DNA of 15,772 nucleotides from an uncultured Blautia sp. Lineage in GTDB: Bacteria > Bacillota > Clostridia > Lachnospirales > Lachnospiraceae. The translations under genes were made by a program, and so were the position numbers. A model generated the notes under the pieces. That model saw only the letters and a program-made list of their open reading frames with translations. It did no database searches and had not been told where the DNA came from. Of the stretch, positions 1 through 15,772 are shown piece after piece (position 1 is the first letter of the stretch; each line of letters opens with the position of its first letter). The stretch covers positions 1-15,772 of the forward strand of contig NZ_CAKRNY010000064.1 in the NCBI RefSeq assembly GCF_934371575.1. The letters are read 5' to 3'.

Positions 1-59
1 CTAACCGTCATTCCTGCTGCTATGATACGTTTTACCCATCTATTTTTTCTTAATGCCAT
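1..59 (-). CDS. Start of an exported protein (partial, runs off the window)
   Basis: An ATG at 57-59 opens a frame that continues past the window edge. The 19 visible residues begin MALRKNRWVKRIIAAGMTV: a basic stretch followed by the start of a hydrophobic run, as in a signal peptide or membrane anchor. The start overlaps the last 20 bases of the upstream secreted-protein gene in another frame, which suggests translational coupling in one operon. An AAGG lies about ten bases before the ATG, a weak ribosome site. The family cannot be named from this much. It could be another SipW-dependent surface protein or an envelope protein. Confidence 0.55.
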   Translation of the reverse strand, partial: MALRKNRWVKRIIAAGMTV

Positions 60-987
60 TTTCTTCAACCTTTTCTTCAAAAGTAACTGTCACCAATTTT
101 TCCAAATCTGCCCAGGTTTCTGCATCTATTTTCTTCTCTGGGTTTCTGTAAAACTGAAACTGAACTGCTGTGGTTGCACCGTCAACATTAAAACTGTAAG
201 AGCCTGTCACCTGCTTGCCATTCGTCGTCCATTTACTGAGCTGCAGACTTTCTGGCCAGGTCATCGTCACTCTTCCTGCTCCATTTCCTGAGATCTCATA
301 ATTAAATGCATCATAATCAGCTGGTGTACGTCCATTTGCCTGAGAATCAAGAAAATGTCCGGTCCAGCTTTTTACAGATTCATAATCTGCAAAAGAGATC
401 ACAGCTGCCAGCTTCTGTGAATTTACTGCCTCTACGGACTCACTCGTTGGTTCCGCAACAATCTGGATTTCTATTTTATTTTTCAATTCAGCAGGTAATT
501 CAAATTTATATTTATTTTCGCTGGCTTTTCCCGCCTTTAACTCCTGCGAAGTCAGCGTACACTCACCATTGGCATTAAATAATAGACTATCATTTATCCT
601 GATATTGGTAATACTTTCCGGAAGCTTTCCCCCATCCATGGCAATCAGATTTGCCTGTACTGTATACGTGATATCCTTAGTATTATAAAGAGATTCATCT
701 CCCCAGGCATAGTTGCATACTTTAACCGTGAATGTATTCTTATCCTCTTCTTCTGAAAGAGTTATACGTCTAATGGAATAGTTATTGTCCGTTAAATTTA
801 ACAGTGTCAAATAATTTGATCCAAACATCGTATCACTTCGCCGCTCTGTGGATACCACTCGTTTTACACTATTAAAACTGGTATATGCCGCAAAACTCCC
901 AGATACGATAAGAATCAGCATTCCAATACTGAAAATCCCAGCCGCCACCCTATATTGCTTTATCCATTTCCATATTGTCTCTTTCAT
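40..987 (-). CDS. Secreted, membrane-anchored protein with SipW/camelysin-like N-terminus, function unknown
   Basis: The protein is 315 residues. It has a basic N-terminus (about 1-13) and one strong hydrophobic segment (about 14-35) ending GSFAAYTSF, which resembles the G-[ST]-x-A-[YW]-x-[TF] junction of SipW-processed TasA/CalY proteins. The rest is a soluble, Ser/Thr/Asn-rich, probably beta-rich extracellular region with no cysteine pattern or catalytic motif that I recognise. The tail is charged and ends in lysines. The start is supported by GGAAAGG seven bases before the ATG and by a good promoter further upstream. The next gene overlaps its end. A role as surface or matrix protein, or as a minor subunit beside a TasA-like fibre protein, is inference. 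It could equally be a generic single-pass exported protein. Confidence 0.7.
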   Translation of the reverse strand: MKETIWKWIKQYRVAAGIFSIGMLILIVSGSFAAYTSFNSVKRVVSTERRSDTMFGSNYLTLLNLTDNNYSIRRITLSEEEDKNTFTVKVCNYAWGDESLYNTKDITYTVQANLIAMDGGKLPESITNIRINDSLLFNANGECTLTSQELKAGKASENKYKFELPAELKNKIEIQIVAEPTSESVEAVNSQKLAAVISFADYESVKSWTGHFLDSQANGRTPADYDAFNYEISGNGAGRVTMTWPESLQLSKWTTNGKQVTGSYSFNVDGATTAVQFQFYRNPEKKIDAETWADLEKLVTVTFEEKVEENGIKKK

Positions 988-1566: not shown

Positions 1567-1977
1567 TCAATTAAATTTCTTTAGCCATTCATCAGGTTCT
1601 ATAGCTGACACCACAGAAGTCGCAAAATCTGCTGTATTTCGAGTAATTATATAATTTGCCGATACTTCCTCAGCACATCTATCCTGCAAACAATCTTCAA
1701 AATCTTTGAAGTTATCCATTTTGATAGCTCTCATGACTGCTTCCTGAGATGCAGACGCTACTTTTAGAATTTTGCAGATCTTTTCTAACCATGTTCTTCT
1801 TGTCTCTACCGGAACTTTTCTGAGAATGTACCACAGATTAGGCAAAGAGTGAAATGCCATATATCCCTCTGCTTCTCCAGATGCACATTTCTCCATCACA
1901 TGCAACGCAGAATCGTAAAACGGTTCTCTTGCAACAAGAAAATCAATAATTACATTCGTATCAATCAATACTACCAT
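1567..1977 (-). CDS. PIN-domain ribonuclease toxin (VapC-like)
   Basis: The protein is 136 residues when started at the ATG at 1977. It opens with LIDTNVIIDF, the signature first strand of PIN nucleases. Acidic residues fit the metal site: D6, D95 (in FEDCLQD) and D117 (in TRNTADF). Known family members are Mg-dependent RNases that cut tRNA, rRNA or mRNA and are held inactive by the cognate antitoxin. The frame is open 24 codons further upstream, but AGAAGGG just before the ATG at 1977 and the fact that PIN proteins begin at this strand decide the start. The gene overlaps the antitoxin gene by 17 bases, typical of coupled pairs. Function as a toxin is by family and is not tested here. Confidence 0.85.
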   Translation of the reverse strand: MVVLIDTNVIIDFLVAREPFYDSALHVMEKCASGEAEGYMAFHSLPNLWYILRKVPVETRRTWLEKICKILKVASASQEAVMRAIKMDNFKDFEDCLQDRCAEEVSANYIITRNTADFATSVVSAIEPDEWLKKFN

Positions 1978-2402: not shown

Positions 2403-2445
2403 GCATAACAAAATGAGAAAAAACTGACGAGAAAATAATAGCAAA
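2403..2445 (+). repeat. Left copy of a 43-bp direct repeat (candidate att site)
   Basis: This copy matches 11231-11273 at 40 of 43 positions in the same orientation. Key blocks are GCATAACAAAAT at its left and CTGACGAGAAAATAATAGC at its right, the latter identical in both copies. It lies 28 bases after the stop of the second kinase gene and about 90 bases from the toxin-operon promoter. It contains ATG AGA AAA AAC TGA on the plus strand, a possible start followed quickly by a stop. Confidence 0.8.
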
Positions 2446-2473
2446 TCATACTATACTTTACTTACCCTTCATC

Positions 2474-5242
2474 TCACCGTATAGCTGAAAGAATGGTTTT
2501 CTTAACCTTTTCTGCATCAACAGGCTTTGCAATATGTCCGTTCATACCTTTTTCAAATGCTTTTTTTCTGTCTTCCTCAAATGCATTGGCGGTCATAGCT
2601 ATGATCGGAATACCGGCTTTTTTCTTATCTGCCAGCCTTCTGATTGCCTGAGTTGCCTTATATCCATCCATGTTCGGCATCTGGATGTCCATAAGGATCA
2701 GATCGTAAGTACCTGCCGGTTTCTGCTCCATCCTTGCCACACATTGAACTCCATCCTCAACACGATCAACCATAAGTCCCATATCCTCCAGGATAAACTC
2801 CGCGATTTCCGCATTCAGATCATTATCCTCAGCCAGTAGAACATGTTTTCCGCTGATCCTGTTTGTTTCCTCTGTATCCGGGGACGGATCCGTATCCTGC
2901 TCGTAGTAAACCTTATCAGCAATCCTGTATTCCATGATAACTGTAAATTTGCTTCCTTCTCCCAGCTTACTTTTTGCTTTAAGGCTTCCGCCCATCATAT
3001 CTACATATTTCTTTATGATCGGCATTCCCAGTCCTGTTCCCGCAACCTTTCCAGCTGTTGTATTTCGTTCCCGGGCAAAAGCCTCAAACAGGGATGGCAG
3101 GAATTCTTCACTCATTCCGATACCTGTATCAATTACCTCAGTCTGTATCCGCACATAGTCTTGCCTGTCACAGCCAAGCTCTGCGATCCTTATGGTAACC
3201 GTTCCCCCTGAAGCTGTATATTTTACCGCATTACTGATCAGATTGAGGAAAACTTCCCTGTTCTTTGTCTCATCGCAGATTACATGTTCATGCTGCACTT
3301 TATACTCCATCTCAAGGTGAATACCCTTTTTCTCCGCTTCTGCCTGAAAAATTTTGTAAACTCCCTGATAAATATCTCTGATCTTCACATAATTTTCATC
3401 CAGTTCCATCTTACCACTTTCAATCCGAGCCATGTCCAGCACATTATTGATAATAGACAACAGCAGATTTCCGGACTGTTCCATCTTCTCCTGATAATCC
3501 AGAAGCTTCGGATCTGTCAGTTCCCTTTTCATCAGCTCACTGTATCCCAGCAGGGCATTCATCGGTGTCCGGATATCATGTGACATATTGAAAAGGAAAT
3601 CTGATTTGGCAGCATTGGCCTTTTCTGCCTGAATCTGGGCTTTTCTTGCTTTCATCATCAGATAAACTATAATCAGTATAATTACCAAGGTCACACTCAC
3701 AAAACTAATAGAAACCACCCGTAGATTATCCTTAATATAATCTGCCAGAGTGACCTTTCCCGGTGTGTTTTCATATACGGAAAACAGGCTTGAAAGTCTG
3801 GAAGCAGACAGAGTCTGAATGGTTTTATTCAGGATATTCATTAATGTTGTATTTTCCCTGGTGACTGCAAAACAGGAATCGCCGGATTTTGTAAGAAAAA
3901 TGCTGTGCGTTTTGCTGTCCTCCAGCGTCTTTAATGACTGTCCTGCCTTCACAACAAAGCAGTCTGCCTCACCACTGTGAACTGCCTTCTCAACCTCATC
4001 AGATGAATCATATTCCTTTATTTTCCAGAAAGGATAATTAAAAGAAATATACCACTTCCCCAACAGGTTATTCTTGCTCACTGCCACTGTATTCTCTTTA
4101 TTTTCGTCAAACTTCTTAACATCGGTAATTACTGCAATATTGACTTCAAAAACAATATTTGACAATATAATATCGTTCTGCTCAGCCTCATATGGATTCT
4201 GATTCATATGAAAAATCATATCAATCCTGTTATCCTTTAATGCCTGCAGCTCTTCCTCCTGGGAATCAAAGCCTGTCAGCTGAAATTCTATTTTCTTTTT
4301 CCCCAGACAGTCGGAAGCCAGACTGATATAATCGTTAATAATCCCTACCGGTTCCTCTGACTCTGCATCCACCAGGCTGACACCCACATCATTTTTCAGA
4401 TATCCAATCCTGACTGCTCCATGCTGTTCCAGCCAGTTCTGCTCCTCATCCGTAAGAATTTCAATGGGATTTGCTAAGAGGTACCTCTTATAAAGATCTT
4501 CTTTATAAAAAGGATTCTCCTTTTCAATCTTCTGCATTGCCTGATCCAGTTCTTCTTTCAGATCCGGACGTTTTTTGCTGACTGCAAAATAATTATAGGA
4601 GCCGCCGATCAGAAGAGCAGGAGAAATGTTGTCTCTTTCCCACTGTGGAGATTCATTTACAACAAATCCGTCAATTTCCTGTTTTTGTATTTTCTGACGG
4701 GCATCATTTGTACTGGTAATATCAACCTTCTGTGTGTCTACTCCATGACTTTTCTCCCACTCATAGAACCGTCTGGCAGAAAGTGTATCTGGCATCACCC
4801 CGATTCGCTTTTCATTCAATGTAGTCAGATCCGAAGCGGAAATATCCGTATCAGAAGGATTTATATAAAGGTAATACTTATCTTCGCCCATAGGCAGTTC
4901 TGAAAAGAGCATGGAAGCGGAACGTTCCTCTGCATAGGAAATACCTCCCATCAGATCGATTTCTCCACTCTTCAGCATGTTCATCAGTTCTGCCCAGCTT
5001 CCCTCCACATATTCATATTTCCATCCTGTATGCGCAGCCACTGCCTGCTGATATTCGTAACTGTAGCCTCTCTTCTTACCGTCTGGTCCTGTGGTATTAT
5101 AGGTTCCTTCATACCAGCCTACTCGGACTGTCCGGTTTTTCGCTCCCTCTGCAGATACTGAAAAGGGAAGCACAGTACTATATAAAACAAGGCATAATAA
5201 AATGCAGATATATCTCTGTACATTTATCTTAAACTTTTTCAT
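2474..5242 (-). CDS. Membrane hybrid histidine kinase with two periplasmic-binding-type sensor domains (BvgS-like layout)
   Basis: The protein is 922 residues. A signal peptide or anchor spans about 8-31. Two solute-binding (SBP_bac_3/PBPb) domains follow at about 37-255 and 272-490, then a transmembrane helix at about 508-531. The HisKA domain has the H box NMSHDIRTP (H555), and the ATPase has the N box NLISNAVKYT, G1 DTGIGM (from 705) and G2 GTGLGM (735-740). A receiver at about 799-920 has acidic residues E805/D806, the phospho-acceptor D852 in LMDIQMPNMDG and K906. The extracellular pair probably binds an amino acid or similar small ligand. No HPt or DNA-binding output is attached, so phosphate must pass to a partner elsewhere. 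GGAGAGAG precedes the ATG, and the gene follows the other kinase by 51 bases in one operon. Confidence 0.9.
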   Translation of the reverse strand: MKKFKINVQRYICILLCLVLYSTVLPFSVSAEGAKNRTVRVGWYEGTYNTTGPDGKKRGYSYEYQQAVAAHTGWKYEYVEGSWAELMNMLKSGEIDLMGGISYAEERSASMLFSELPMGEDKYYLYINPSDTDISASDLTTLNEKRIGVMPDTLSARRFYEWEKSHGVDTQKVDITSTNDARQKIQKQEIDGFVVNESPQWERDNISPALLIGGSYNYFAVSKKRPDLKEELDQAMQKIEKENPFYKEDLYKRYLLANPIEILTDEEQNWLEQHGAVRIGYLKNDVGVSLVDAESEEPVGIINDYISLASDCLGKKKIEFQLTGFDSQEEELQALKDNRIDMIFHMNQNPYEAEQNDIILSNIVFEVNIAVITDVKKFDENKENTVAVSKNNLLGKWYISFNYPFWKIKEYDSSDEVEKAVHSGEADCFVVKAGQSLKTLEDSKTHSIFLTKSGDSCFAVTRENTTLMNILNKTIQTLSASRLSSLFSVYENTPGKVTLADYIKDNLRVVSISFVSVTLVIILIIVYLMMKARKAQIQAEKANAAKSDFLFNMSHDIRTPMNALLGYSELMKRELTDPKLLDYQEKMEQSGNLLLSIINNVLDMARIESGKMELDENYVKIRDIYQGVYKIFQAEAEKKGIHLEMEYKVQHEHVICDETKNREVFLNLISNAVKYTASGGTVTIRIAELGCDRQDYVRIQTEVIDTGIGMSEEFLPSLFEAFARERNTTAGKVAGTGLGMPIIKKYVDMMGGSLKAKSKLGEGSKFTVIMEYRIADKVYYEQDTDPSPDTEETNRISGKHVLLAEDNDLNAEIAEFILEDMGLMVDRVEDGVQCVARMEQKPAGTYDLILMDIQMPNMDGYKATQAIRRLADKKKAGIPIIAMTANAFEEDRKKAFEKGMNGHIAKPVDAEKVKKTILSAIR

Positions 5243-5293
5243 ATAACTCTCTCCAAATTATTTCAGGGCTTCCATCACACATCCAGGAATCAA

Positions 5294-8200
5294 TTACAGC
5301 CAGTTTTCCAAAACATCATTCAGCTTATTCATATCCAGCGGTTTTGCAATATGCCCATTCATTCCTGTGTTTTTGGCCAGCTGTACATCTTCCGCAAAAG
5401 CATTGGCAGTCATGGCAACAATCGGCAATTTTCCCTGTTCACCTGGAAGGCTTCTGATTGCTGCGGTTGCCTCATAACCATTCATGACAGGCATTTGGAT
5501 ATCCATAAAAACAAGATCATACAAGCCTTTCGGAGAAGCCTCCACTTTTTCAACTGCAATTTTCCCATTTTCTGCTGTTTCCACTTCTGCCCCTGTCATC
5601 TGCAGAATTTCAACAGCAATTTCTCTGTTCAGCTCATTGTCCTCGACCAGCAGAATCCTTTTTCCTGAGTAATCTGCTTCTGACAGCTCATCCAGATAAT
5701 TTCTTGCTGTTTTTTCTTTTCTGCCTGAAGTAAACTGCCGCAGCGTTGCTGTCAGCCGGGAGCGGAACAGTGGTTTTGCAATAAAAGCATCTACACCTGC
5801 AGCCTTTGCTTCTTCTTCGATCTCACTGAATTCATAAGATGTCAGTACAATGATGGTAATCTCTTTCCCGATCCGTTTCCGGATCTGTCTGGCAGTTTCT
5901 ATGCCATCCATATCCGGCATCTTCCAGTCCAGGATAACGGCAAAGTAATCGCTTCTCTGCTCATGACGTGCATAACAGCGCTCAACGGCTTCTCTGCCAG
6001 AGAGAACCCATTCGCCTGTAATCCCAATCTCCTTCAATGTGGCAACTGTGCTTTCACAGCATGTCTTATCATCATCCACAACCAGAACCGGCAGATTCAT
6101 CAGATTTTTATCCTGTTCTTTTTCTTTTTCCTGAAGTTCCAGATAAATTGTTACCGTGATTCGTGTTCCCTTATGCAAGGTGCTTTCCACCTTAATATTA
6201 CCATTCATCAGGTTCACAATATTTCTGCTGATTGCCATTCCCAGACCCGTTCCCTGAATCTTGGTTGTCCGGTGGTCATCTGCGCGGCTGAAAGGATCAA
6301 ACATGATTTTCTGAAATTCCGGTGACATACCGATTCCATTATCCTCAATCGTAAATTCATAGCATCCAAGTTCTGAAAATCCATTTGGCTTTTCCTCTAT
6401 AGAAAAAGTAATATTCCCACCATCTGGTGTATACTTGATCGCATTACTCATCAGATTCACAAACACCTGCTGGATCCTCAGGCTGTCACCACAGACATCC
6501 TCATGTTCAATGTGATTAATGTGTATATCAAAATTGTGTTTATGTTCATCAATCACCGGTTTTGTAAGTGTAATAAGGTTATCCACCAAATCTGGCAGAT
6601 TGAAATCCTCCTGTGCCAGCGTCATTTTTCCGCTTTCAATACGTGCCATATCCAGCACTTCATTGATCAGTCCCAGCAGATGACGGCTTGATTTTGTAAT
6701 CTTGCTGAGACATTCAATAACTCTGTCCTGACTCTCAATATTTGCTCCTGCGATTGCTGTCAGGCCCACAATGGCATTCATCGGTGTCCGGATATCATGG
6801 GACATATTGGAAAGGAATTCTGTTTTCGCACGATTCGCATTTTCTGCAGACCGGTAAGCTTCTTTCAGTGCCTGGCGGGATTCAATCTCTGCTTTCTTCT
6901 CCTGGGTCACATCCATGGATGCCACCAATACTTTTACCAGTTTTCCAGTTTTCCATTCCAAGGGAATGTAAGAAGCGATTTTATAAGTCTTTTCATCCAG
7001 GCTGCAGTACTCAAACTTATAAATATCATTTTCACTTTTCAGATTCTTCCGGATATTTTCCGGGGCTATCAGGATATCCATAGCTTCCAGCGGTTCCAGT
7101 GTCTTATACTTATCAAGAACCTGCATCTGAAAATCATGATAAAATCCCAGAGGTTTATATATCATCTGTCCATTCAGATTGTAGAATTCATATCTGTCAT
7201 TTTCCAGATCACAGACAACAAAGCGGTCAACCAGACGCACAATGCTCTGGATCAGCTGCTCCATGGAAGCATTGTCCGCTGCCATCTGCAGATGCCGTGC
7301 GCTCTCCACCTTTGCCTCCGTAATGTCACGCAAAAAAATCATGGCATATTCTGAATCCTCAATCTCACCGCGTATGATCACGTTGCGGACCCATCGTTCT
7401 TCTCCATCCAGAGTGATTCGACACTCCAAAGATAATTCGGTTTCCAGACCCTTCAGCTTTTCCGCAATATAACTGCGGTCGTAAAAAGAGGATACCGCCT
7501 TCTTATCTGTTTCCACAACATAGGAATCTACAAAATGCCGGATCAGTTCATCCCAGGTACGGCTCTGTTCAAAAACTGTCATCAGGGACGGTTCAACCTT
7601 AAAGGTATCAAAAGTGTTCGCCTCCAGATTCACATAATACTCGCACAGATCTGTTTTCGTGAAAGCCCGGTGGAAAGCAGCAGACTTTTGTGCCTGCATG
7701 GCTTCTTTTTTCTCTGCATCAATGTTTATAAAAATCCCGGCAATCCTGCTGGCAGTACCATCCAACCGGCGTACCACTTCTGCTGATGTCCGAAACCACT
7801 GGTAATGATGATCCTTCATTCTCAGACGATACTCTACCTGGTATTTTATCTGGTTCGTCTTATCCGCAATTGCAGCATGAAGCTGTGCCATTACTCTTTC
7901 TTTGTCCTGTGGATGCAGAAGGTCTGACCAAGATTCCAGTTTATTCGGAAAATCCAGGATGTCATGATATCCAAGCATTTTTCGGAACTCATGGCTCCAG
8001 TTTGCTTTCACAATCTCACTGTTTTCATCACATTCAAAATACCAGAAGCCGGAATAGATAGCCTCATTGATCAGTGTCAGATTTACATGATCCCAGTTGA
8101 CCCGTACAGACATAACCCAGATCTGTCTGCCTGCTTCATCTGTCGCATCCTCTTTATAAAGCCATACATTTTTCACTGTACCATCCGCAGTAAGGATCTG

Positions 8201-8500
8201 CGCTTCCCCTGCTCCGTGAAGCTGTAAAAAACGATTCCGATCCAGTATATCTTCCTCGTTATAAAAGAAATTTTTCAATGAGCCTTTTGTCTGTTCCATA
8301 AAGGTATCGAATGTATGTCCTGTACTATGTAACAGCAGATTACTCACAGACAAAACAGACAGGTTTTGGTCATAATATCCTGTTATTATACCTACCCCGC
8401 CATTATTTTCCAGTGTTTTCTGTACGACCTGCGACATGACCTGTGTCTGTCCCAGCACATTCTCATCTAAAGAATAGATTTTATCTTCATAATTTTCCAT
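5294..8500 (-). CDS. Cytoplasmic PAS hybrid histidine kinase with two receiver domains
   Basis: From the ATG at 8500 the protein has 1068 residues and no transmembrane helix or signal peptide. An N-terminal PAS-like region spans about 1-140. A PAS_3 domain follows at about 148-262 (WYFE..., LLHPQDKERV), with further PAS-like segments at about 278-397 and 415-533. The HisKA domain carries SNMSHDIRTP (H568). The ATPase has N box NLMSNAIKYT, G1 DNGIGM (720) and G2 GTGLGM (750-755). Receivers lie at about 804-925 (D858 in LDWKMPDMDG) and 947-1066 (D1000 in FMDIQMPVMNG). The frame is open 31 codons further up, but GGAGTGAGG lies before the ATG at 8500 and the longer form would overlap the terminator hairpin. 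It is the first gene behind the c-di-GMP riboswitch and promoter, so its expression is likely set by c-di-GMP. Co-transcription with the membrane kinase is likely. Confidence 0.88.
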   Translation of the reverse strand: MENYEDKIYSLDENVLGQTQVMSQVVQKTLENNGGVGIITGYYDQNLSVLSVSNLLLHSTGHTFDTFMEQTKGSLKNFFYNEEDILDRNRFLQLHGAGEAQILTADGTVKNVWLYKEDATDEAGRQIWVMSVRVNWDHVNLTLINEAIYSGFWYFECDENSEIVKANWSHEFRKMLGYHDILDFPNKLESWSDLLHPQDKERVMAQLHAAIADKTNQIKYQVEYRLRMKDHHYQWFRTSAEVVRRLDGTASRIAGIFINIDAEKKEAMQAQKSAAFHRAFTKTDLCEYYVNLEANTFDTFKVEPSLMTVFEQSRTWDELIRHFVDSYVVETDKKAVSSFYDRSYIAEKLKGLETELSLECRITLDGEERWVRNVIIRGEIEDSEYAMIFLRDITEAKVESARHLQMAADNASMEQLIQSIVRLVDRFVVCDLENDRYEFYNLNGQMIYKPLGFYHDFQMQVLDKYKTLEPLEAMDILIAPENIRKNLKSENDIYKFEYCSLDEKTYKIASYIPLEWKTGKLVKVLVASMDVTQEKKAEIESRQALKEAYRSAENANRAKTEFLSNMSHDIRTPMNAIVGLTAIAGANIESQDRVIECLSKITKSSRHLLGLINEVLDMARIESGKMTLAQEDFNLPDLVDNLITLTKPVIDEHKHNFDIHINHIEHEDVCGDSLRIQQVFVNLMSNAIKYTPDGGNITFSIEEKPNGFSELGCYEFTIEDNGIGMSPEFQKIMFDPFSRADDHRTTKIQGTGLGMAISRNIVNLMNGNIKVESTLHKGTRITVTIYLELQEKEKEQDKNLMNLPVLVVDDDKTCCESTVATLKEIGITGEWVLSGREAVERCYARHEQRSDYFAVILDWKMPDMDGIETARQIRKRIGKEITIIVLTSYEFSEIEEEAKAAGVDAFIAKPLFRSRLTATLRQFTSGRKEKTARNYLDELSEADYSGKRILLVEDNELNREIAVEILQMTGAEVETAENGKIAVEKVEASPKGLYDLVFMDIQMPVMNGYEATAAIRSLPGEQGKLPIVAMTANAFAEDVQLAKNTGMNGHIAKPLDMNKLNDVLENWL

Positions 8501-8537
8501 TTTATAAAAAGCCTCACTCCGTCTCATTTTTGCATAC

Positions 8538-8571
8538 AAAAAGGACACCTGCCAAAATCTGCCAGTGCCCC
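8538..8571 (-). terminator. Riboswitch-associated intrinsic terminator in the kinase leader
   Basis: On the minus strand GGGCAC (8565-8570) pairs with GTGTCC (8543-8548). Further imperfect pairing inside (TGGCA against GGCAG-type bases) is followed by TTTTTG. It lies between the c-di-GMP aptamer and the kinase start, 38 bases before the ATG, and can only serve to stop leader transcripts. Inner mismatches make it a moderate terminator. Confidence 0.6.
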
Positions 8572-8596
8572 TACTGTATCTCTTTATTACCACATA

Positions 8597-8646
8597 TCCA
8601 TATCATACAAAAGTTATCGGAATCTCTTCCGTTTTAAACATATGGA
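8597..8646 (-). promoter_or_regulatory. Alternative helix competing with the riboswitch P1 stem
   Basis: The minus-strand sequence TCCATAT (8640-8646) includes the 3' half of aptamer helix P1. It is perfectly complementary to ATATGGA (8597-8603) further downstream. The two pairings exclude each other. The alternative one encloses a small hairpin CGGAA-GAGA-TTCCG (8618-8631). This is the arrangement expected of an expression platform that reports ligand binding. How it couples to the terminator is not settled from sequence. Confidence 0.4.
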
Positions 8647-8746
8647 AATAGCAGTAACCGGCTGACATGGTCAAACTTTCTGACTTTAGCCCCTTCTGGC
8701 TTTGCGTCCCTGCTTTTCAGCAAGTTTGCCTTTAAATAATTTCCAT
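8642..8746 (-). promoter_or_regulatory. Cyclic di-GMP class I riboswitch (GEMM-I) aptamer
   Basis: The minus strand shows the conserved GEMM-I parts in order. AAAGGCAAAC is followed by a short hairpin GCT-GAAA-AGC with the typical GAAA tetraloop, then the highly conserved GGGACGCAAAGCC, then GGGGCTAAAG, then a stem and CATGTCAGCCGGTTAC. The ends pair as a perfect 8-bp P1: ATGGAAAT (8739-8746) with ATTTCCAT (8642-8649). In this family c-di-GMP sits between P1, P2 and P3, and the tetraloop docks into P3. The RNA lies between a promoter and the PAS kinase gene, with a terminator downstream, so it most likely controls transcription of the kinase operon, often as an OFF switch in clostridia. A 64-codon open frame over this region is incidental. 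Confidence 0.92.
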
Positions 8747-8760
8747 TTTTTCCAAAAATA

Positions 8761-8789
8761 AAAATACCACGAAGTTTTTTATACGTCAA
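8761..8789 (-). promoter_or_regulatory. Promoter of the riboswitch-kinase operon
   Basis: On the minus strand TTGACG (8784-8789) is 17 bases from TATTTT (8761-8766). The predicted start, about 8754, falls just before the first base of aptamer helix P1, which is what a riboswitch leader needs. The -35 box and spacer overlap the final codons of the recombinase remnant. Confidence 0.6.
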
Positions 8790-8938
8790 TATTGTTGGAT
8801 AGAAAACCTGTATTTTTTTCAATACCATCCCTGTACACCACCCGAATGTCCTCTTTACTATGCACCACCACGTGGTCGATCTGCCTGATAAAAATTCATT
8901 CCGTCATCTGAGCAATGCCCAGGGCTTCTGCCCGTCAT
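8779..8938 (-). pseudogene. Remnant of a third large serine recombinase (internal deletion)
   Basis: An ATG at 8936-8938 overlaps the stop of the preceding recombinase as ATGA, the usual coupling in such tandem sets. Its frame (MTGRSPGHCSDDGMNFYQ...) ends after 26 codons. In another frame, 8895-8779 reads IDHVVVHSKEDIRVVYRDG... and ends in a proper stop. That is the typical C-terminal strand pattern of a recombinase after its coiled coil. So the first codons and the last roughly 38 codons survive, while the catalytic domain and everything between is gone. The gene is certainly non-functional. That the two pieces are from one gene is inference. Confidence 0.6.
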
Positions 8939-10242
8939 GTAGGAAGCCCCTTTGTCTTCGCCGGAGAACCAGTACGGTTTGCTGCATGTCGGGCTTTCCT
9001 CTCTGGTGTCCATGATGCTTTCTGTGCGGTATGCTCCCAGTGCTGGGTAACCTCTGTGCCATCCTTCAGGTGAAAAAGCAGTTCGTGCGCTCCCCTCACC
9101 GTGATGGATTCCACTTTATCAAAGAAAATATCCTCTTCAAATTCAGAAATGTCCAGCACTATTTCACTGGCTTCCATGAGTTTTGCTTCCGGAATATTCT
9201 TGGAAGCACATCGTCTGTACTTTTCGGCTTTCTTTCCTGTACAGACCCAGGTCGGACGCTTTTTCCCAATCTCACTGGTATTCCAAAGCTGCCTGGTGTA
9301 GTGCCTTCCGCAGCAGCCGCAGATCACCTTCATCGTAAAAGGATATTTCTTGCCTGTGTGGTTGTAGGGAAATCGTCCCATCTCTTTATTCCGGGCAAGT
9401 TTCTCCTGCACCTGTTCAAATGTACCCATGTCAATGATTGCCTGGTGGGTGTCCTGTACAAAGTACTGTGGAAGTTTCCCTGTGTTCATCACTTTCTTTT
9501 TGGAAATCGGATCCTGGATGAAAGTTTTCTGAAGAAGGGTATTACCTGTATAAGTGATATTTCGCAGGATATTGCCGACCGCACTGACGGAGATTGGGTT
9601 TCCATTGATAGATGTGATGCCCTCTCCGATCAATTCCTCTGCTATTTTCATATGGGAACCGCCTGAAAGGAAATTTGCAAAAATCCGCTTGACCACCTCG
9701 GCTTCTTCAGGTATCACAGTCAGTTTCCCATCTACCCAGTGATAGCCGAAGGTTCTGCGTCTTGTATTTCCGACTCCATTCTGGAAAGCTTTACGAATTG
9801 CCCACTTTATATTTTCGCTGATGGATTCGCTTTCTGCCTGTGCCACCGATGCCATAAGTGTCAGCAGCAATTCTCCTTCCTCAGTCAAAGAATCTATATT
9901 CTGTTCCTCAAACCGTACAGAAACACCAAGCCCCTTTAAATATCGGACTATCCGGAGTAAATCCAGCGTATTTCTTGCAAACCGGCTCACCGATTTTACA
10001 AGAATCAAATCGATTTTTCCGGCTTCGCAGTCACTTATAAGCCTGACAAAATCTTCTCTTCTTTTTATGTCGGTTCCAGAGATTCCGTTGTCTTTATAAA
10101 TTCCCGCCAGCTCCCATTCTGCATTTTCACGAATCTGTCTCCGGTAAAAATCTTCCTGCGCTTGCAAAGAATGCTGCGTTTCTTTTGTCTCTTCCGATAC
10201 TCTCACATACGCTGCGGCTCTCAGCTTTTCGTTATTTTCCAT
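8935..10242 (-). CDS. Large serine recombinase with zinc ribbon
   Basis: The protein is 435 residues. The resolvase-type catalytic domain (about 7-150) has the nucleophile S16 in AYVRVS, the SVSRFARNTLD motif (about 84-93) and the ESESISENIKWA helix. A recombinase DNA-binding domain follows at about 160-270. A zinc beta-ribbon has C308, C311, C334 and C345. The coiled-coil part after it is short, and the tail ends in a basic stretch. Such enzymes cut att sites with a Ser-DNA link and exchange strands by subunit rotation, giving integration, excision or inversion. Its start overlaps the end of the upstream recombinase by 11 bases. It is followed at once by a third, ruined recombinase. Confidence 0.9.
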   Translation of the reverse strand: MENNEKLRAAAYVRVSEETKETQHSLQAQEDFYRRQIRENAEWELAGIYKDNGISGTDIKRREDFVRLISDCEAGKIDLILVKSVSRFARNTLDLLRIVRYLKGLGVSVRFEEQNIDSLTEEGELLLTLMASVAQAESESISENIKWAIRKAFQNGVGNTRRRTFGYHWVDGKLTVIPEEAEVVKRIFANFLSGGSHMKIAEELIGEGITSINGNPISVSAVGNILRNITYTGNTLLQKTFIQDPISKKKVMNTGKLPQYFVQDTHQAIIDMGTFEQVQEKLARNKEMGRFPYNHTGKKYPFTMKVICGCCGRHYTRQLWNTSEIGKKRPTWVCTGKKAEKYRRCASKNIPEAKLMEASEIVLDISEFEEDIFFDKVESITVRGAHELLFHLKDGTEVTQHWEHTAQKASWTPERKARHAANRTGSPAKTKGLPT

Positions 10243-11188
10243 ATCTGGACTCTCTTTTTTTCAATTCATCCTGTACTCTCTGAAACATCTCTGTATCAAT
10301 GATTGCTTCATGATTCCCAACAATATAGTATTGAGGAACTTCGCCCTCGTTTTTACGCATTTCCCGATCAAGAAAGTCTCTGGAATACCGTTTCTGAAGC
10401 AATGCATCACCTCTGTATTTTTCATTTTGCAAAATATTTTTTACTGTTCGCCCATTCCAGATTTGCAATCCATAGGGTGTGGAAATTCCTCTTTTTGTCA
10501 GTTCAGCAGCAATTCCATAAAAGGAATATCCATCCAAAAACATCCGGTAAACCATCTGTACCGTTTTTGCCTGTTCCAGGTTCACCAGCAGTTCTCCGTT
10601 CGCGCCACGATCATATCCAAGGAAATGTCGAAACGGCACAAATACTTTTCCGTTTTGAAAAGCCTTGCGCATTCCCCAACGTGTATTTTCGGAAATGCTG
10701 CGGCTTTCTTCCTGTGCCAGAGAGCTCATGATTGTTATCAGAAGTTCTCCTTTTGCATCAAAGGTCCAGATGTTTTCCTTTTCAAAATAACACTCAACTC
10801 CATGCTCTTTCAGCTGACGAATTGCAGTCAGACTATCTACTGTGTTTCTTGCAAAACGACTGACTGATTTCGTTATGATCAGGTCAATTTTACCAGCAAT
10901 AGCATCCTCGATCATCCGCTGAAATTCCATCCGTTTCCGTGTAGATGTACCCGTAACGCCTTCTTCAGCGTACATCCCGGCAAAGCTCCAGTCTGTCCGT
11001 TTTTCTATATATTCCATATAGTAATGAACCTGTGCTTCATAGCTCGTCTGCTGGCTTTCTTTATTGGTACTTACTCTGGCATACGCCGCCACACGACGTT
11101 TATTCTTCTCCTGCCCATTTTCTGAATTACGATTCTCCCGTGCCGGAATCACTATCACTTTTTTCGCTTTTTTTGTTTTCTCTGTCAT
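10232..11188 (-). CDS. Serine recombinase lacking the zinc-ribbon region
   Basis: From the ATG at 11188 the protein is 318 residues. The catalytic domain has S40 in AAYARVS, SVSRFARNTVD (about 108-118) and ESRSISENTRWGMRKAFQNG. A recombinase DNA-binding domain covers about 185-290, and the chain ends at KKRESRYGK with no zinc ribbon or coiled coil. The frame is open 52 codons further up, but AGGAAGGAAC lies just before 11188 and the extension would run back through the repeat. It is probably the first gene of the recombinase operon. It may work with its neighbour as a mixed complex, one supplying the zinc ribbon that the other lacks. The absence of a zinc ribbon could also mean loss of independent activity. 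Confidence 0.87.
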   Translation of the reverse strand: MTEKTKKAKKVIVIPARENRNSENGQEKNKRRVAAYARVSTNKESQQTSYEAQVHYYMEYIEKRTDWSFAGMYAEEGVTGTSTRKRMEFQRMIEDAIAGKIDLIITKSVSRFARNTVDSLTAIRQLKEHGVECYFEKENIWTFDAKGELLITIMSSLAQEESRSISENTRWGMRKAFQNGKVFVPFRHFLGYDRGANGELLVNLEQAKTVQMVYRMFLDGYSFYGIAAELTKRGISTPYGLQIWNGRTVKNILQNEKYRGDALLQKRYSRDFLDREMRKNEGEVPQYYIVGNHEAIIDTEMFQRVQDELKKRESRYGK

Positions 11189-11229
11189 AATACGTTCCTT
11201 CCTTCTTCTGTGAAATCTCTTGCAAATAC

Positions 11230-11258
11230 AGCATAACAAAATAAGAAAAATCTGACGA
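11230..11258 (-). promoter_or_regulatory. Probable promoter of the recombinase operon, inside the right repeat
   Basis: On the minus strand TCGTCA (11253-11258) is 17 bases from TATGCT (11230-11235). The -10 is preceded by TG one base upstream, an extended -10. The predicted start is about 35 bases before the recombinase ATG. Almost all of it lies inside the 43-bp repeat, so recombinase binding to that site could repress its own operon. Confidence 0.45.
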
Positions 11259-11273
11259 GAAAATAATAGCGAA
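11231..11273 (+). repeat. Right copy of the 43-bp direct repeat (candidate att site)
   Basis: This copy matches 2403-2445 at 40 of 43 positions, with differences at the 13th, 21st and 41st bases. It lies between the recombinase operon and the TasA/CalY-like gene, whose open frame begins inside it just after an in-frame TGA (11253-11255). Confidence 0.8.
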
Positions 11274-11285
11274 ACAAAGGTTGCC

Positions 11286-12218
11286 ATGGTATGCGTTGCC
11301 GCTGTAGCGCTGGGATCAAGTACGTATGCTTGGTTTGTGAACAATGCAAGAGTAACAGCTACTGACGTTAGCGTAACTGCATCAACAGCTTACTCACTAC
11401 TTATCTCAAAAGATAAGAACACATGGGGAACTACGGAGGCTTTAAATGGAACAGCAGTAAATTTAATTCCAGCATCTACTATCGGTGAAAAGAATGATAC
11501 TACTGGAGCTTTGAAATTTGTAACTGATACTGCATGGACAGGAAACTATGCATCCACATTCAAGGAGGTTGCAAGTAGTGATTCTGTAAATGTTACTACT
11601 ACAACTGGTACTTCAGTTACAAGTAAGTATTTTTACACAGATACCGTATACTTGAAATCTGCGCAGGCTGCTAAGCTTTATCTCGATAAAACAGGAACCG
11701 GTATTGGAACAACCACTAATGGCAATGTTGCAACCAAACAGTTTGACGCAACAGATTTAACAGCACAGCAGAAAGCAATGTTAAATACATTGCGTGTAGC
11801 ATTTGTTGTAAAAAATGAGACACAGAATACAGCAGCAGCTACATATGTTTATCAGTTAGTAGCTGATGGCACTGGAGCAACACATTACAATACAACAAAA
11901 GACAGCACAACAGCGGATATTGATGGTGTAAAAGGAGCAGTAGCAGTTGACGGTACACCAACAAAATTTACTAATTTTGCAACAAATGAAGTTCCTGTTA
12001 TCACAAGTAAAATGGCAACAGGATCACAGGCTGGATACGCAACTACAACTGACGCAGAATCATTGGGAACTGTAGCGGCTAACGATGTTGTTAAGGTAGA
12101 TGTATATGTTTGGATGGAAGGTTGCGACTATGATGTAAACTCAACAAACCTTGTTAATTTCCAGGAAGCAGCTATTAATGACATGATGTTCGGCTTCTGT
12201 ATTGGACAGGCTAACTAA
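11286..12218 (+). CDS. TasA/CalY-like secreted matrix or fibre protein, N-terminus cut at the element junction
   Basis: The protein is 310 residues from the ATG at 11286. A hydrophobic stretch ends GSSTYAWFVNN, the hallmark SipW-type signal-peptide end, and is followed by a Thr/Ala/Asn-rich, lysine-poor extracellular region typical of TasA/CalY fibre subunits. Homologs normally have a basic start before this core. Here the frame continues upstream as ETKVA and RENNS, but meets TGA inside the 43-bp repeat. AAAGG five bases before 11286 could still start a product without the basic region. It would then be poorly exported. I see no strong plus-strand promoter between the recombinase start and this gene. 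It is therefore either a 5'-truncated gene, perhaps silent, or one with an unusual start. It is the only plus-strand gene that I accept here and is followed by a strong terminator. Confidence 0.75.
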   Translation: MVCVAAVALGSSTYAWFVNNARVTATDVSVTASTAYSLLISKDKNTWGTTEALNGTAVNLIPASTIGEKNDTTGALKFVTDTAWTGNYASTFKEVASSDSVNVTTTTGTSVTSKYFYTDTVYLKSAQAAKLYLDKTGTGIGTTTNGNVATKQFDATDLTAQQKAMLNTLRVAFVVKNETQNTAAATYVYQLVADGTGATHYNTTKDSTTADIDGVKGAVAVDGTPTKFTNFATNEVPVITSKMATGSQAGYATTTDAESLGTVAANDVVKVDVYVWMEGCDYDVNSTNLVNFQEAAINDMMFGFCIGQAN

Positions 12219-12445: not shown

Positions 12446-13951
12446 TTAAAATGCCTTCTTGATAGTGGTTCTCGCATTATTCTTTCCACAATGTCCTTTA
12501 TCACTCGGGGTGCTGGCATAAATAATTGTATATCGATCATCACCGTAATATTTTACTTTCTGATGATCTGACTGATCAAAAATAAAACCAATATCTTCTA
12601 AGCTTTTCTTTAATTTTGGTGTCATTCCACTATAATTGCTGAGTAAATGTTTTGCCTCTTCTGCTCTTTGTTCACCTATTGCTTCATAGTTATTAGCATT
12701 CAAAATATCTGCCAATACATCGTATCTTCTTGTTCTTGTCTCTGTGGCAGATAATTCTTTTTTTACAGCAGACAATACAAAGTCCTTTACCTCTCCAGGA
12801 TAAAAATCATCCTCATCCCCGGCAATTAAAACAGGGACATCCGTCATAGAGTCCAATTTGGCTCTTAACCAGCTTGTTTCATATTCTTTCTTTTGAAGTT
12901 CAGAAGTTAGCCTTTCAATTTCAGAATCTTTCTTCTGCATATCACCTTCAAAGTCATCCAAGATTCTATCCGCTTCTGCTTTTGCCTCTTTCAAAGCCTG
13001 CTGTCGCATACTTTCCTTCGTTTGATTCAAGTCCGACTTGAGAGCAAGTAACTCATAAAGAGCCTTTCTTCGTCCAGCTTCTGCTTCTACATTTTCTTCT
13101 CGTTTACAGGCTAACCGATCCTGCAGTATTGCATTATTTACTCCAAACCACGTATACAGCGTTCCTACCATCTGAGAATTATTATACTGCATAACTGTTC
13201 TCGTTACTTTATCAGAAAGAATACGATCGATGCCCTCGGACATTCTGTACAGATATCTTCTATGCCCGATTGCAGGATTTGGATGATATATTCCAATCGC
13301 ACCGTAATATTCGTTTTTGCCGTCACATAATTCTTTTAATTTACGGTTTGTGCAATTTGTCTCTTGTACCAAAACATGAGCTACACCTTTTAATTCTTTG
13401 GCCAATTTATTAGCATCTACCGGGTCCTCATCATAAAAGGTTTTCGTAATAATTACAACTGGTAATTTGTATCTTGCTGTTCCATTAATAACATTAACAA
13501 TCAAATCAATATTTTCTTCATCGATAATTAATGGTGTACGCCGCACTTCAAGAATATCATCTTTCAGAATATAGCCTCGATCAATTAACATAGAAATAAA
13601 AAAAGGCGTGAAGAATTTTGTATCAACATTTAATGCCTCTTCAATATAACAACGATCCAGTCTTACTGCCATTTTCATTTCCGAAAAATTCATAATATAA
13701 TCTGTATCCCATACAGCTCCATCTGACTCTCTCTTTTCAAAACGAACTGCAATTATATTTTTATTTCTATATTCTTGAATTTCTAAGCATTTATTCTCAT
13801 CTTCATAGCGAACATTTCTTTCACCATTCCACTCAATGCCTGATATAACACTATCTGGATGACCTTTTTTATTCCACTCAATCACTAAATTTATAAAATC
13901 ATCTTTTGTCAGTTTTTTGTCAATTTCAAGGATGGTTGAAAATAATAACAT
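12446..13951 (-). CDS. Large coiled-coil protein of unknown function, last gene of the Xre operon
   Basis: The protein is 501 residues and soluble, with no signal peptide. The N-terminal part (about 1-250) is mixed alpha/beta, with hydrophobic strands such as LPVVIITKTF (163-172) and AHVLVQETNC, and GAIGIYHPN (217-225). A long charged coiled coil spans about 272-370. After a hinge, a small C-terminal domain (about 440-501) reads LKKSLEDIGFIF...KVKYYGDDRYTIIYASTPSD..., with a rhythm like the HicA/dsRBD-like RNA-binding fold. That likeness is weak. I do not recognise the whole protein. AGAGGG precedes the ATG. The gene follows the small 135-residue gene by about 95 bases containing a hairpin. 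Its position behind an Xre regulator beside decayed toxin and intron pieces would fit a defence or mobile-element control module, which is inference. Confidence 0.75.
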   Translation of the reverse strand: MLLFSTILEIDKKLTKDDFINLVIEWNKKGHPDSVISGIEWNGERNVRYEDENKCLEIQEYRNKNIIAVRFEKRESDGAVWDTDYIMNFSEMKMAVRLDRCYIEEALNVDTKFFTPFFISMLIDRGYILKDDILEVRRTPLIIDEENIDLIVNVINGTARYKLPVVIITKTFYDEDPVDANKLAKELKGVAHVLVQETNCTNRKLKELCDGKNEYYGAIGIYHPNPAIGHRRYLYRMSEGIDRILSDKVTRTVMQYNNSQMVGTLYTWFGVNNAILQDRLACKREENVEAEAGRRKALYELLALKSDLNQTKESMRQQALKEAKAEADRILDDFEGDMQKKDSEIERLTSELQKKEYETSWLRAKLDSMTDVPVLIAGDEDDFYPGEVKDFVLSAVKKELSATETRTRRYDVLADILNANNYEAIGEQRAEEAKHLLSNYSGMTPKLKKSLEDIGFIFDQSDHQKVKYYGDDRYTIIYASTPSDKGHCGKNNARTTIKKAF

Positions 13952-13996
13952 TCTTTTCCCTCTTTATCTACTGTAAAATTAAAGTTTATTGGTGCT

Positions 13997-14029
13997 ACGC
14001 TGACAACTAATATTACAGATACTCAGCGT
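13997..14029 (-). repeat. Inverted repeat between the second and third genes of the Xre operon
   Basis: ACGCTGA (13997-14003) and TCAGCGT (14023-14029) can form a 7-bp stem around 19 bases. There is no T run after it, so it is more likely an mRNA processing or stability element, or a protein site, than a terminator. Confidence 0.35.
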
Positions 14030-14046
14030 CTAATAAAATCACAACA

Positions 14047-14454
14047 TTATGCTCTTATACGATACTCTTCCAAATTGATAATTTTGTCATTTCCTGATTT
14101 TTCTTCTTGGCTAATATCCGACTTGTCCAAAATCTTCGAATCACAAACTACTCCACTTTTTTGCTTTCTCCACATGTCCCATTTTTCAGAAAAATACGGA
14201 TATATCTTCTCATCAGTAAAACGCTTTAATGCTGGTAATGCAATTGAAAATGTTAAAGCACCTGCCACATCAGCTACGAATCTTACCCCTTCTATTTTTA
14301 ACATCTCCAGGAATTCATTATTCTCCTTATATTTTGGCTGATCAGGATGGAAATTACCTTTCTTGCTTCTAAATCCATTGTTATCAATAGCTCTTCCAGA
14401 TTTCAAATCTTCATATGCTTCATCAGAAAAAATTGCAATCATCTTTTTTGCCAT
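14047..14454 (-). CDS. Small protein of unknown function, middle gene of the Xre operon
   Basis: The protein is 135 residues. The N-terminal half is polar and charged (SDEAYEDLKSGRAI...NNGFRSKKGNFHPDQPKYKEN). A moderately hydrophobic stretch at about 57-76 (VRFVADVAGALTFSIALPAL) could be an amphipathic or short membrane helix. An aromatic/basic stretch (YPYFSEKWDMWRKQK) and an acidic tail follow. I recognise no family. GGAGGG lies seven bases before the ATG, a good ribosome site. It follows the regulator gene by 32 bases, so the two are one transcript. Together with the regulator's hydrophobic tail, the possible membrane stretch hints at a membrane-associated complex. Confidence 0.7.
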   Translation of the reverse strand: MAKKMIAIFSDEAYEDLKSGRAIDNNGFRSKKGNFHPDQPKYKENNEFLEMLKIEGVRFVADVAGALTFSIALPALKRFTDEKIYPYFSEKWDMWRKQKSGVVCDSKILDKSDISQEEKSGNDKIINLEEYRIRA

Positions 14455-14486
14455 TCAATACCCTCCACTTATATAATTACTGCTGT

Positions 14487-14963
14487 TTATTTTCTTTTGT
14501 CTGTAACTGCCTTAACTAACCATTCAATTACTCCGTCAATCATCGCAAAACCAATTGTACCTATCATAGCTCCGGTAATAAGCCCCATTGCAATAGCTGC
14601 GTTCGTAAGTTCTTTTGAAACTTCTTTACGGCTTGTTGTCCCAGCTAAAATTGATGGCGTAATCATATTTGCTTTTGTTAAAAGATCCTCGCGTTCATCT
14701 TCGTCATAATTTTCAGGATGGTCCACAAATACATCCAAAATCAAACGGAGCATATCTGTATCTTCGGGGTGTTGACGAATTTCAACATCAAGACTACTTC
14801 GAATTGCAATGTATTGAGCCTTCGTCAGTTTGTTTCTTTTTCCCTCCAGATTATTGACTGTCTGCCTACTAACTCCAATTCTTTCTCCAAACTCCTCTGC
14901 ACTCCAGCCTACAGCTCTACGAATCAATAACATATATTCCTGAAGTCTTTCTACTTCATTCAT
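14487..14963 (-). CDS. Xre-type HTH protein with a hydrophobic C-terminal segment
   Basis: The protein is 158 residues from the ATG at 14963. The N-terminal part (about 5-60) is a Cro/CI-type helix-turn-helix with the recognition region IGVSRQTVNNLEGKRNKLT. An acidic linker (about 66-95) follows, then a Gly/Ala-rich hydrophobic segment at about 121-150 (AIAMGLITGAMIGTIGFAMI...), long enough for one or two tight membrane passes, and a basic end. A GTG three codons upstream is possible, but GGGAGG is best spaced to 14963. A perfect promoter -35 and a palindrome over the -10 lie just upstream, so it probably represses its own operon. A membrane-tethered or membrane-sensing repressor is inference. 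Confidence 0.82.
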   Translation of the reverse strand: MNEVERLQEYMLLIRRAVGWSAEEFGERIGVSRQTVNNLEGKRNKLTKAQYIAIRSSLDVEIRQHPEDTDMLRLILDVFVDHPENYDEDEREDLLTKANMITPSILAGTTSRKEVSKELTNAAIAMGLITGAMIGTIGFAMIDGVIEWLVKAVTDKRK

Positions 14964-14983
14964 GCCTCTCACCTCCCATATGT

Positions 14984-15319: not shown

Positions 15320-15772
15320 CTTCTCCAAGTTATAGACACATTCCCTTTTTCTGTGGTTTTTTGAATGCTGTTAAATTATCAGATGAAGATATATACCCTC
15401 TAAGACGCTGAGAATTAAATCTTTCTATGCTGATCTTATGAAGTTGTACTCATCTCTGTATTCATTTACATAGAAAACCGTGAAAACTCTGATTAAATCA
15501 GAAGCTCAACTTTACAAAGAACAGAATCCCCTTCTTTTTATCCTGGTATGGGATTCTTCTGAATGCCTTGCAAGCTTGTTTTTGTTTACCATTTTCACAA
15601 GGAAGATAATAAGCATACGTGTATGCGGTGGCTTTCTACAGATTATCATAATGCACTTTGCTTTCATATGATATCCTGCTGTTTTCGCATATTGTATTTC
15701 TCCCTTCTGAAGTTCTCTTTTCAGTTACATGACTATACCAGAAGTCGGGAAAATAGCAATTCATCAGATGTA
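15320..15772. other. About 450 bp without a convincing gene
   Basis: Short open frames occur on both strands (about 50-63 codons), but none has a good ribosome site together with protein-like composition. A minus-strand stretch of about 46 codons (around 15485-15625, containing AYTYAYYLPCENGKQ) looks somewhat protein-like but lacks a start, so it may be another gene remnant. A ribosome-like AGAAGGGAGA (minus strand, near 15710) precedes only an 8-codon frame. I see no repeat array or RNA gene. Confidence 0.4.

Follow-up and report, generated by a model that had tools for sequence, protein, structure and literature searches.

What is the block of DNA that lies between two copies of a 43-bp direct repeat in an uncultured Blautia species, and how did one of those copies come to stand beside a fibre gene that lacks its leader? 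The stretch analysed here (the window) is 15,772 nucleotides of contig NZ_CAKRNY010000064.1, assembly GCF_934371575.1. Between the repeat copies there are, in order on the minus strand, two serine recombinase genes (REC2, REC1), a riboswitch for cyclic diguanylate (c-di-GMP) and two sensor kinase genes (KIN2, KIN1), and only these. A first-pass annotation read this 8.9-kb block as a mobile element with the kinases as cargo; the evidence favours a partly worn element over a currently mobile one. The explanation we prefer, which we hold tentatively and would put just below an even chance, is that these genes form a serine-recombinase element, now partly worn, which sits at the junction between leader and body of a TasA-like fibre gene and has picked up two signalling units. 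A recombinase element of the phrog_95 type (REC2 and REC1) would have come into the fibre locus inside the signal-peptide code of the fibre gene, and its arrival would have left, to the right, a fibre body without a leader. The 43-bp repeats would most likely be recombination sites belonging to REC2, and separately circulating riboswitch-KIN2 and KIN1 units would have joined up behind REC1. We infer the role of the repeats as recombination sites, that of the recombinases as makers of the junction in the fibre gene, and the sequence in which all this happened; self-excision today is unlikely.

What lies at the right junction? The gene bordered by the right repeat had been taken to be intact, and it is 5'-truncated. 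Homology in the gene at 11286-12218 begins at GTTGCCATGG, and the frame upstream of this point runs into a stop codon. In the intact relative P0001, which is 95% identical to the window fibre gene, the leader MKKENLGSVKALKKQLGAA precedes VAMVCVAAVALGSSTYAWF. Because the right repeat abuts a leaderless gene, excision and joining of the flanks would restore no gene.

Some other leaderless copies of the fibre gene have a recombinase or its remnant for a neighbour. In the nearest relative found, G108 (locus L106, position 13129), the junction is as in the window and is followed by a remnant of REC1 (33 aa, 69.7% identity) and then by the orthologue of a secreted fibre-type protein that we label PILIN. 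The window and G108 PILIN proteins are 66.6% identical over 303 aa (L106:14568-15470), and in G108 the gene lies 173 bp from the REC1 remnant. With REC1 and PILIN as the frame of reference, the leaderless copy points one way in the window and the other way in G108. Locus L004 has a 512-codon frame homologous to REC2 (62% identical) with a leaderless copy ~0.45 kb behind it, and in the same genome a second recombinase, 45% identical to REC1, adjoins the TasA-like cluster. In locus L007, the leaderless copy stands in inverted orientation and converges on the intact gene. As in a shufflon, these silent bodies without a start break near one place in the leader: the window breaks at the same point as L106, and L004 and L007 break nearby. 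Recombinases of this family or their remnants are close by for three of the four leaderless copies with DNA and for 0 of 13 intact genes (Fisher p=0.006, post hoc), the intact genes being judged in fetched flanks, some of them short, and a more distant relative, L008, being left out. Two side observations concern these loci. Tandem repeats of a 166-bp type sit between recombinases and TasA-like genes at two places in the L004 genome (L004:1652-2107 and, on another contig, L246:7345-8275), those of L004 being ~80% like those on the other contig. Directly behind the inverted copy in L007, a C-terminal scrap of what appears by eye to be another fibre body (L007:11566-11690) suggests repeated rearrangement there.

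Fibre relatives with DNA are scarce and mostly remote, with 5 of 397, 19 of 297 and 14 of 138 genomes having one in three larger searches. TasA and the SipW-dependent matrix fibres are among the closest known systems to the window fibre gene; VIA-align ranks the TasA fibre 8aur first for P0001. Among PDB sequences, the fibre profile matched aldolases only (E 0.052), and an IMG/VR scan with the fibre alignment confirmed no relative.

Do leader and body of the fibre gene travel together? This was asked of 120 listed proteins out of 474, of which 94 have at least 30 residues up to AWF and were used (4371 pairs); 26 were dropped. Among the 73 pairs with identical leaders, 54 have bodies that are less than 50% identical, and among the 220 pairs with bodies at least 60% identical, 112 have leaders below 80%. 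A control block of equal length right after AWF gives 0 of 21 identical-block pairs with bodies below 50%, and its correlation with the body is 0.69, as against 0.27 for the leader. Some of the pairs with similar bodies and dissimilar leaders belong to one slowly diverging group (P0031-P0063) for which no swap is needed, and assembly chimeras are possible because the fibre proteins come mostly from metagenomes. In the genus of G001, raw identities between six genomes are 78-87% for the 5' untranslated region (UTR) and 68-94% for the leader, followed by 49-69% for the body start and 51-67% for the 3' flank. This comparison used six of the seven loci fetched; G798, which was left out, has a UTR 75-83% like those of the other six in a looser comparison. 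Identity drops on one side only, which a junction at the leader would explain better than a two-sided exchange. Judged from these alignments, leaders and bodies are reassorted among the members of this fibre family, which has no name of its own. The 120 listed proteins comprise 92 with a full leader, 11 that start at an internal Met, which gene calling alone could produce, two with foreign residues before VAM, nine broken just before AWF and six cut otherwise. The UTR in the G001 genus is itself long, ~360 bp before the fibre gene in L222-L227, with the conservation of 78-87% already given. It is possibly a regulatory RNA, and Rfam found no riboswitch at the fibre 5' UTR in these loci or in L228.

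What kind of recombinases are REC2 and REC1? Both match the phage family PHROG phrog_95 (REC1 4e-120, REC2 5e-112), and three phage records match 1-2% of the window, all inside REC2; plasmids gave no close DNA match to the window. REC2 ends ahead of the zinc ribbon into which the 512-codon frame of L004 continues, and its 318 aa compare with about 512-527 aa in relatives. This truncation makes self-mobility of the element doubtful. REC1 is a different case. Its closest full-coverage relatives are mostly 560 aa with an additional tail, and 24 of the 120 relatives listed have 525-569 aa; because 73 of the 120 have 385-445 aa, REC1 is a common short form and not evidently decayed. Debris of a recombinase tail lies 3' of REC1 and ends at 8818, where homology to the KIN2 unit starts in G445 (8818) and, nearly so, in G269 (8816); in the other six genomes with KIN2 this homology starts at 8791. 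The interior is composed of recombinases and riboswitch-kinase genes as first described, apart from the shortening of REC2 and the debris. P0251, a relative of REC1 (92%, 61 contigs), has the C-terminus KYTDFLSNIIDV, and in G445 and G269 all 12 of its final 12 residues are encoded directly before the riboswitch of KIN2. P0251 therefore runs from a REC1 relative into KIN2 promoter sequence, meaning that the link between REC1 and KIN2 recurs.

Paired serine recombinases of these types are also encoded by neighbouring genes in phages of gut Firmicutes (phrog_95; for example, phage NatCom_9287). A search of IMG/VR with REC2 found 411 loci; in the best 80 of them, the recombinase genes are mostly neighbours that overlap, and the order is REC1-type then REC2-type in 41 of the 80 and two REC2-type genes in 24. 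Median lengths are 596 aa for the REC1 type (45 frames) and 527 aa for the REC2 type (114 frames); an IMG/VR scan with REC1 itself confirmed no relative. In contrast to the phage pairs, the window has REC2 before REC1, a shorter REC2 and no recognised phage structural gene. A second likeness is to the staphylococcal cassette chromosome (SCC) elements with ccrA and ccrB, as here too two adjacent serine recombinases stand beside a direct repeat and CcrB is the best NCBIfam match of both. However, the CcrB scores (123.4 and 112.2 bits) fall below the cut-off of 900, and where SCC elements insert at the 3' end of rlmH, the right flank in the window is a fibre gene; no rlmH-type methyltransferase family was found among the ten window proteins scanned.

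Are the repeats the sites at which these enzymes acted? The pair described by the first-pass annotation is confirmed, with the two copies in the same orientation and identical at 40 of 43 bases. Its chance expectation is 6.6e-12 under the base composition of the window and 9e-5 under the AT-rich composition of the repeat itself, and with up to 3 mismatches the 40-base consensus matches the window at these two places only (0 in 200 shuffles), which rules out a chance origin. The left copy lies 28 bp from the KIN1 stop (2474), as first stated, and the REC2 start (11188) lies 42 bp from the right copy. A widespread repeat family, which would have spoken against an element, was not found: the 27-base core (up to 3 mismatches) was not found in 397 genomes of G108's family, and the 19-base core was found neither in IMG/VR by exact 19-mer search nor in 181 fetched loci. 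Such absence is as would be expected of sites created by a single insertion. A similar motif of 29 columns with 24 matches does occur in L004, where it ends less than 50 bp from the start of the REC2 homology; none of 200 simple block shuffles gave one as good. Compared with the window repeat, its orientation is the same relative to the leaderless gene and opposite relative to the recombinase. Because one copy of the repeat directly precedes REC2, like the motif in L004, the repeats are probably recombination sites of the REC2 type.

Did the kinases arrive as one cargo? In 64 genomes of one related genus, with up to four candidates per genome scored, the riboswitch-KIN2 unit (about 5280-8818) was found in eight at 90-92% DNA identity and the KIN1 unit (2492-5263) in four at 88-89%. 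In the three genomes with both, the kinases lie on different contigs (two genomes) or ~527 kb apart (one). The eight KIN2 loci form five distinct neighbourhoods, and a riboswitch precedes KIN2 in all five loci scanned with Rfam (L103, L127, L128, L131 and L132). G108 has a KIN2 homologue at 1.6 Mb, ~0.5 Mb away from its fibre locus. By this distribution, riboswitch-KIN2 and KIN1 are two signalling units that circulate separately, and the separate loci rule out an inseparable cargo. Plasmid relatives of KIN1 have less than 60% identity among the matches listed (5000 records), and no relative was confirmed by an IMG/VR scan with KIN1. Upstream of KIN2, the hairpin and the promoter-like sequence are conserved in nine aligned sequences, the window included, and c-di-GMP probably acts on KIN2 by way of the terminator-like hairpin, in what would be attenuation. 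The riboswitch resembles the c-di-GMP-I riboswitches of Clostridia in being a full Rfam match with a promoter-like sequence and a terminator-like hairpin, and differs from them in preceding a hybrid histidine kinase that is found in varied neighbourhoods. A separate observation is that the aptamer before KIN2 in G269 and G445 (L103/L131) is without its 3' part and scores 42.4 and 40.9 bits, against 69-77 in the remaining KIN2 loci scanned; judging from the missing part, this is natural decay of one riboswitch.

The remaining genes of the window lie outside the repeats. PILIN, a native neighbour of the fibre locus, matches no Pfam or NCBIfam family. The gene for a PIN-domain protein overlaps a 92-aa gene (1961-2239) without a significant family match; the two, outside the left repeat, make a probable toxin-antitoxin pair (1567-2239), the overlap being the ground for pairing them. 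Between the leaderless fibre gene and the right end of the window are three minus-strand genes (12446-14972). Of their products, one of 501 aa is similar to HEC-07, a candidate defence family (PADLOC E=2.9e-11), one of 135 aa has no match and the third is a helix-turn-helix regulator. The window ends inside a repeated intergenic sequence of which G108 has two 392-bp copies at 94%, G445 three matches and G269 one partial match; some copies adjoin riboswitch-KIN2 or TasA-like genes.

Table. Features of the window, listed from left to right
Feature	Position	Strand	Description
PILIN	40..987	-	Secreted fibre-type protein, 315 aa
PIN-domain protein	1567..1974	-	Probable toxin; PF13470 E=9.7e-16
Left repeat copy	2403..2445	+	43-bp direct repeat
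KIN1	2474..5242	-	Hybrid histidine kinase, 922 aa; two SBP_bac_3 sensor domains, HisKA, HATPase_c, receiver
KIN2	5294..8500	-	PAS hybrid histidine kinase, two receivers, 1068 aa from conserved ATG
Hairpin	8538..8571	-	Intrinsic-terminator-like, with U run, between aptamer and KIN2; -13.5 kcal/mol
Riboswitch	8650..8740	-	c-di-GMP-I aptamer RF01051; 71.2 bits (Rfam gathering score 35)
Promoter-like sequence	8761..8790	-	TTGACG / TGGTATTTT, upstream of riboswitch; putative promoter
Recombinase-tail debris	8818..8931	-	C-terminal tail with in-frame stop
REC1	8935..10242	-	Serine recombinase, 435 aa; Resolvase, Recombinase, Zn_ribbon_recom
REC2	10232..11188	-	Serine recombinase, 318 aa; Resolvase, Recombinase, no zinc ribbon
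Right repeat copy	11231..11273	+	43-bp direct repeat
Leaderless fibre gene body	11280..12218	+	TasA-like; starts inside signal-peptide code at GTTGCCATGG
Repeated intergenic sequence	15635..15772	-	Part only (392 bp in G108); window ends inside

How does a partly worn element at the fibre junction fare against other explanations? Several observations weigh against it. An insertion that simply split the fibre gene is not seen, because the window holds no leader half: a 22-residue query found no fibre leader piece elsewhere in it. The idea that REC1 is a decayed gene was dropped once the lengths of its relatives had been counted. No recombinase of this family lies on the L007 contig, and the count of three in four leaderless copies is based on few loci. 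In 78 viral loci, the stretch ahead of the first recombinase gave no significant match to the repeat motif (best 26, against a maximum of 28 and a 99% value of 23 in the null). The attL and attR sites of large serine integrases usually have only few bases in common, which makes a repeat of 40 in 43 odd for such enzymes. Finally, a DNA query of REC2-REC1-riboswitch found no REC1 match beside the riboswitch in the eight genomes with KIN2; at most four candidates per genome were scored, and the absences in this search and in that of the 64 genomes are therefore soft. It is unlikely, in our judgement, that the locus is instead a shufflon-like switch in which REC2 and REC1 recombine a conserved signal-peptide sequence and join silent bodies to one expressed leader. 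The window would then show one silent body by its recombinases, with the expressed gene outside it, past the right end and oppositely oriented, and with the kinases as a regulatory passenger. The reassortment of leaders and bodies (54/73 and 112/220) with a control block that behaves normally (0/21), the G001 genus with its 5' UTR and leader more alike than body start and 3' flank, the inverted copy convergent to an intact gene in L007 and the flipped copy in G108 would all fit such a switch. However, the repeats listed for the window include no inverted pair of sites, though a partner site would lie outside it, and the expressed leader is not seen in the window. A recombinase of this type is likewise absent from seven of seven loci fetched in the G001 genus, as from the L007 contig. 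Bodies could also be shuffled independently of REC2 and REC1, by homologous recombination or by horizontal exchange, and metagenome assembly can fuse paralogues at shared leaders.

The proposal nearest to the first-pass annotation is an active 8.9-kb element that excises at its 43-bp repeats and thereby moves, or switches off, a c-di-GMP-controlled signalling input. We regard this as quite unlikely. Part of it stands, in that the direct repeats are found only here and lie beside recombinases whose Resolvase domains match over nearly full length, a similar motif exists in L004, REC1 is a common short form and P0251 carries the link to KIN2. The loss of the zinc ribbon from REC2 speaks against it, and no mobilisation or replication gene was recognised between the repeats, where a small directionality factor could be missed. 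As for a joint cargo, the kinases are separate loci in related genomes with no REC1 found beside the riboswitch there, leaving P0251 as the point in its favour. About as improbable is the explanation that recombinases, kinases, repeat and truncated fibre gene were assembled by unrelated rearrangements, the repeat being a leftover duplication. The boundary between KIN1 and KIN2 in the window is clean (5263/5280) although the kinases are separate elsewhere, and the recombinase debris stops at the start of the KIN2-unit homology, both of which would suit independent joins; the motif before the REC2 homology in L004 and the recurrence of the REC1-KIN2 join in P0251 would not.

What are the implications for the fibre family? 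Invertible surface-gene loci are well known, for example the shufflon of R64 pilV with Rci and the Moraxella locus with Piv. The window fibre family is similar in that here too the 5' part that copies of a surface gene have in common is joined to alternative bodies, and there are bodies without a start. It differs in having serine recombinases, a breakpoint in the signal peptide and a TasA-like fibre, and switching is putative here. Among the titles and abstract openings consulted, none described leader/body switching of a TasA-like fibre or a recombinase element with riboswitch-controlled kinases. It is conceivable, if on the unlikely side, that gut Firmicutes have a serine-recombinase-linked fibre switch, the recombinases of which are, in this strain, physically linked with two sensor kinases and a riboswitch for c-di-GMP. 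With the same reserve, a host-specific promoter and leader might be joined, at a fixed place in the signal peptide, to interchangeable bodies that travel between species. If so, the identity of the matrix fibre and matrix signalling could change jointly, and the kinase block would add an unusual case of a second-messenger sensor module next to recombinases. If bodies do swap under a fixed leader, this would be a little-recognised way for gut Firmicutes to alter their biofilm surface, with a bearing on phage resistance, immune recognition and strain tracking.

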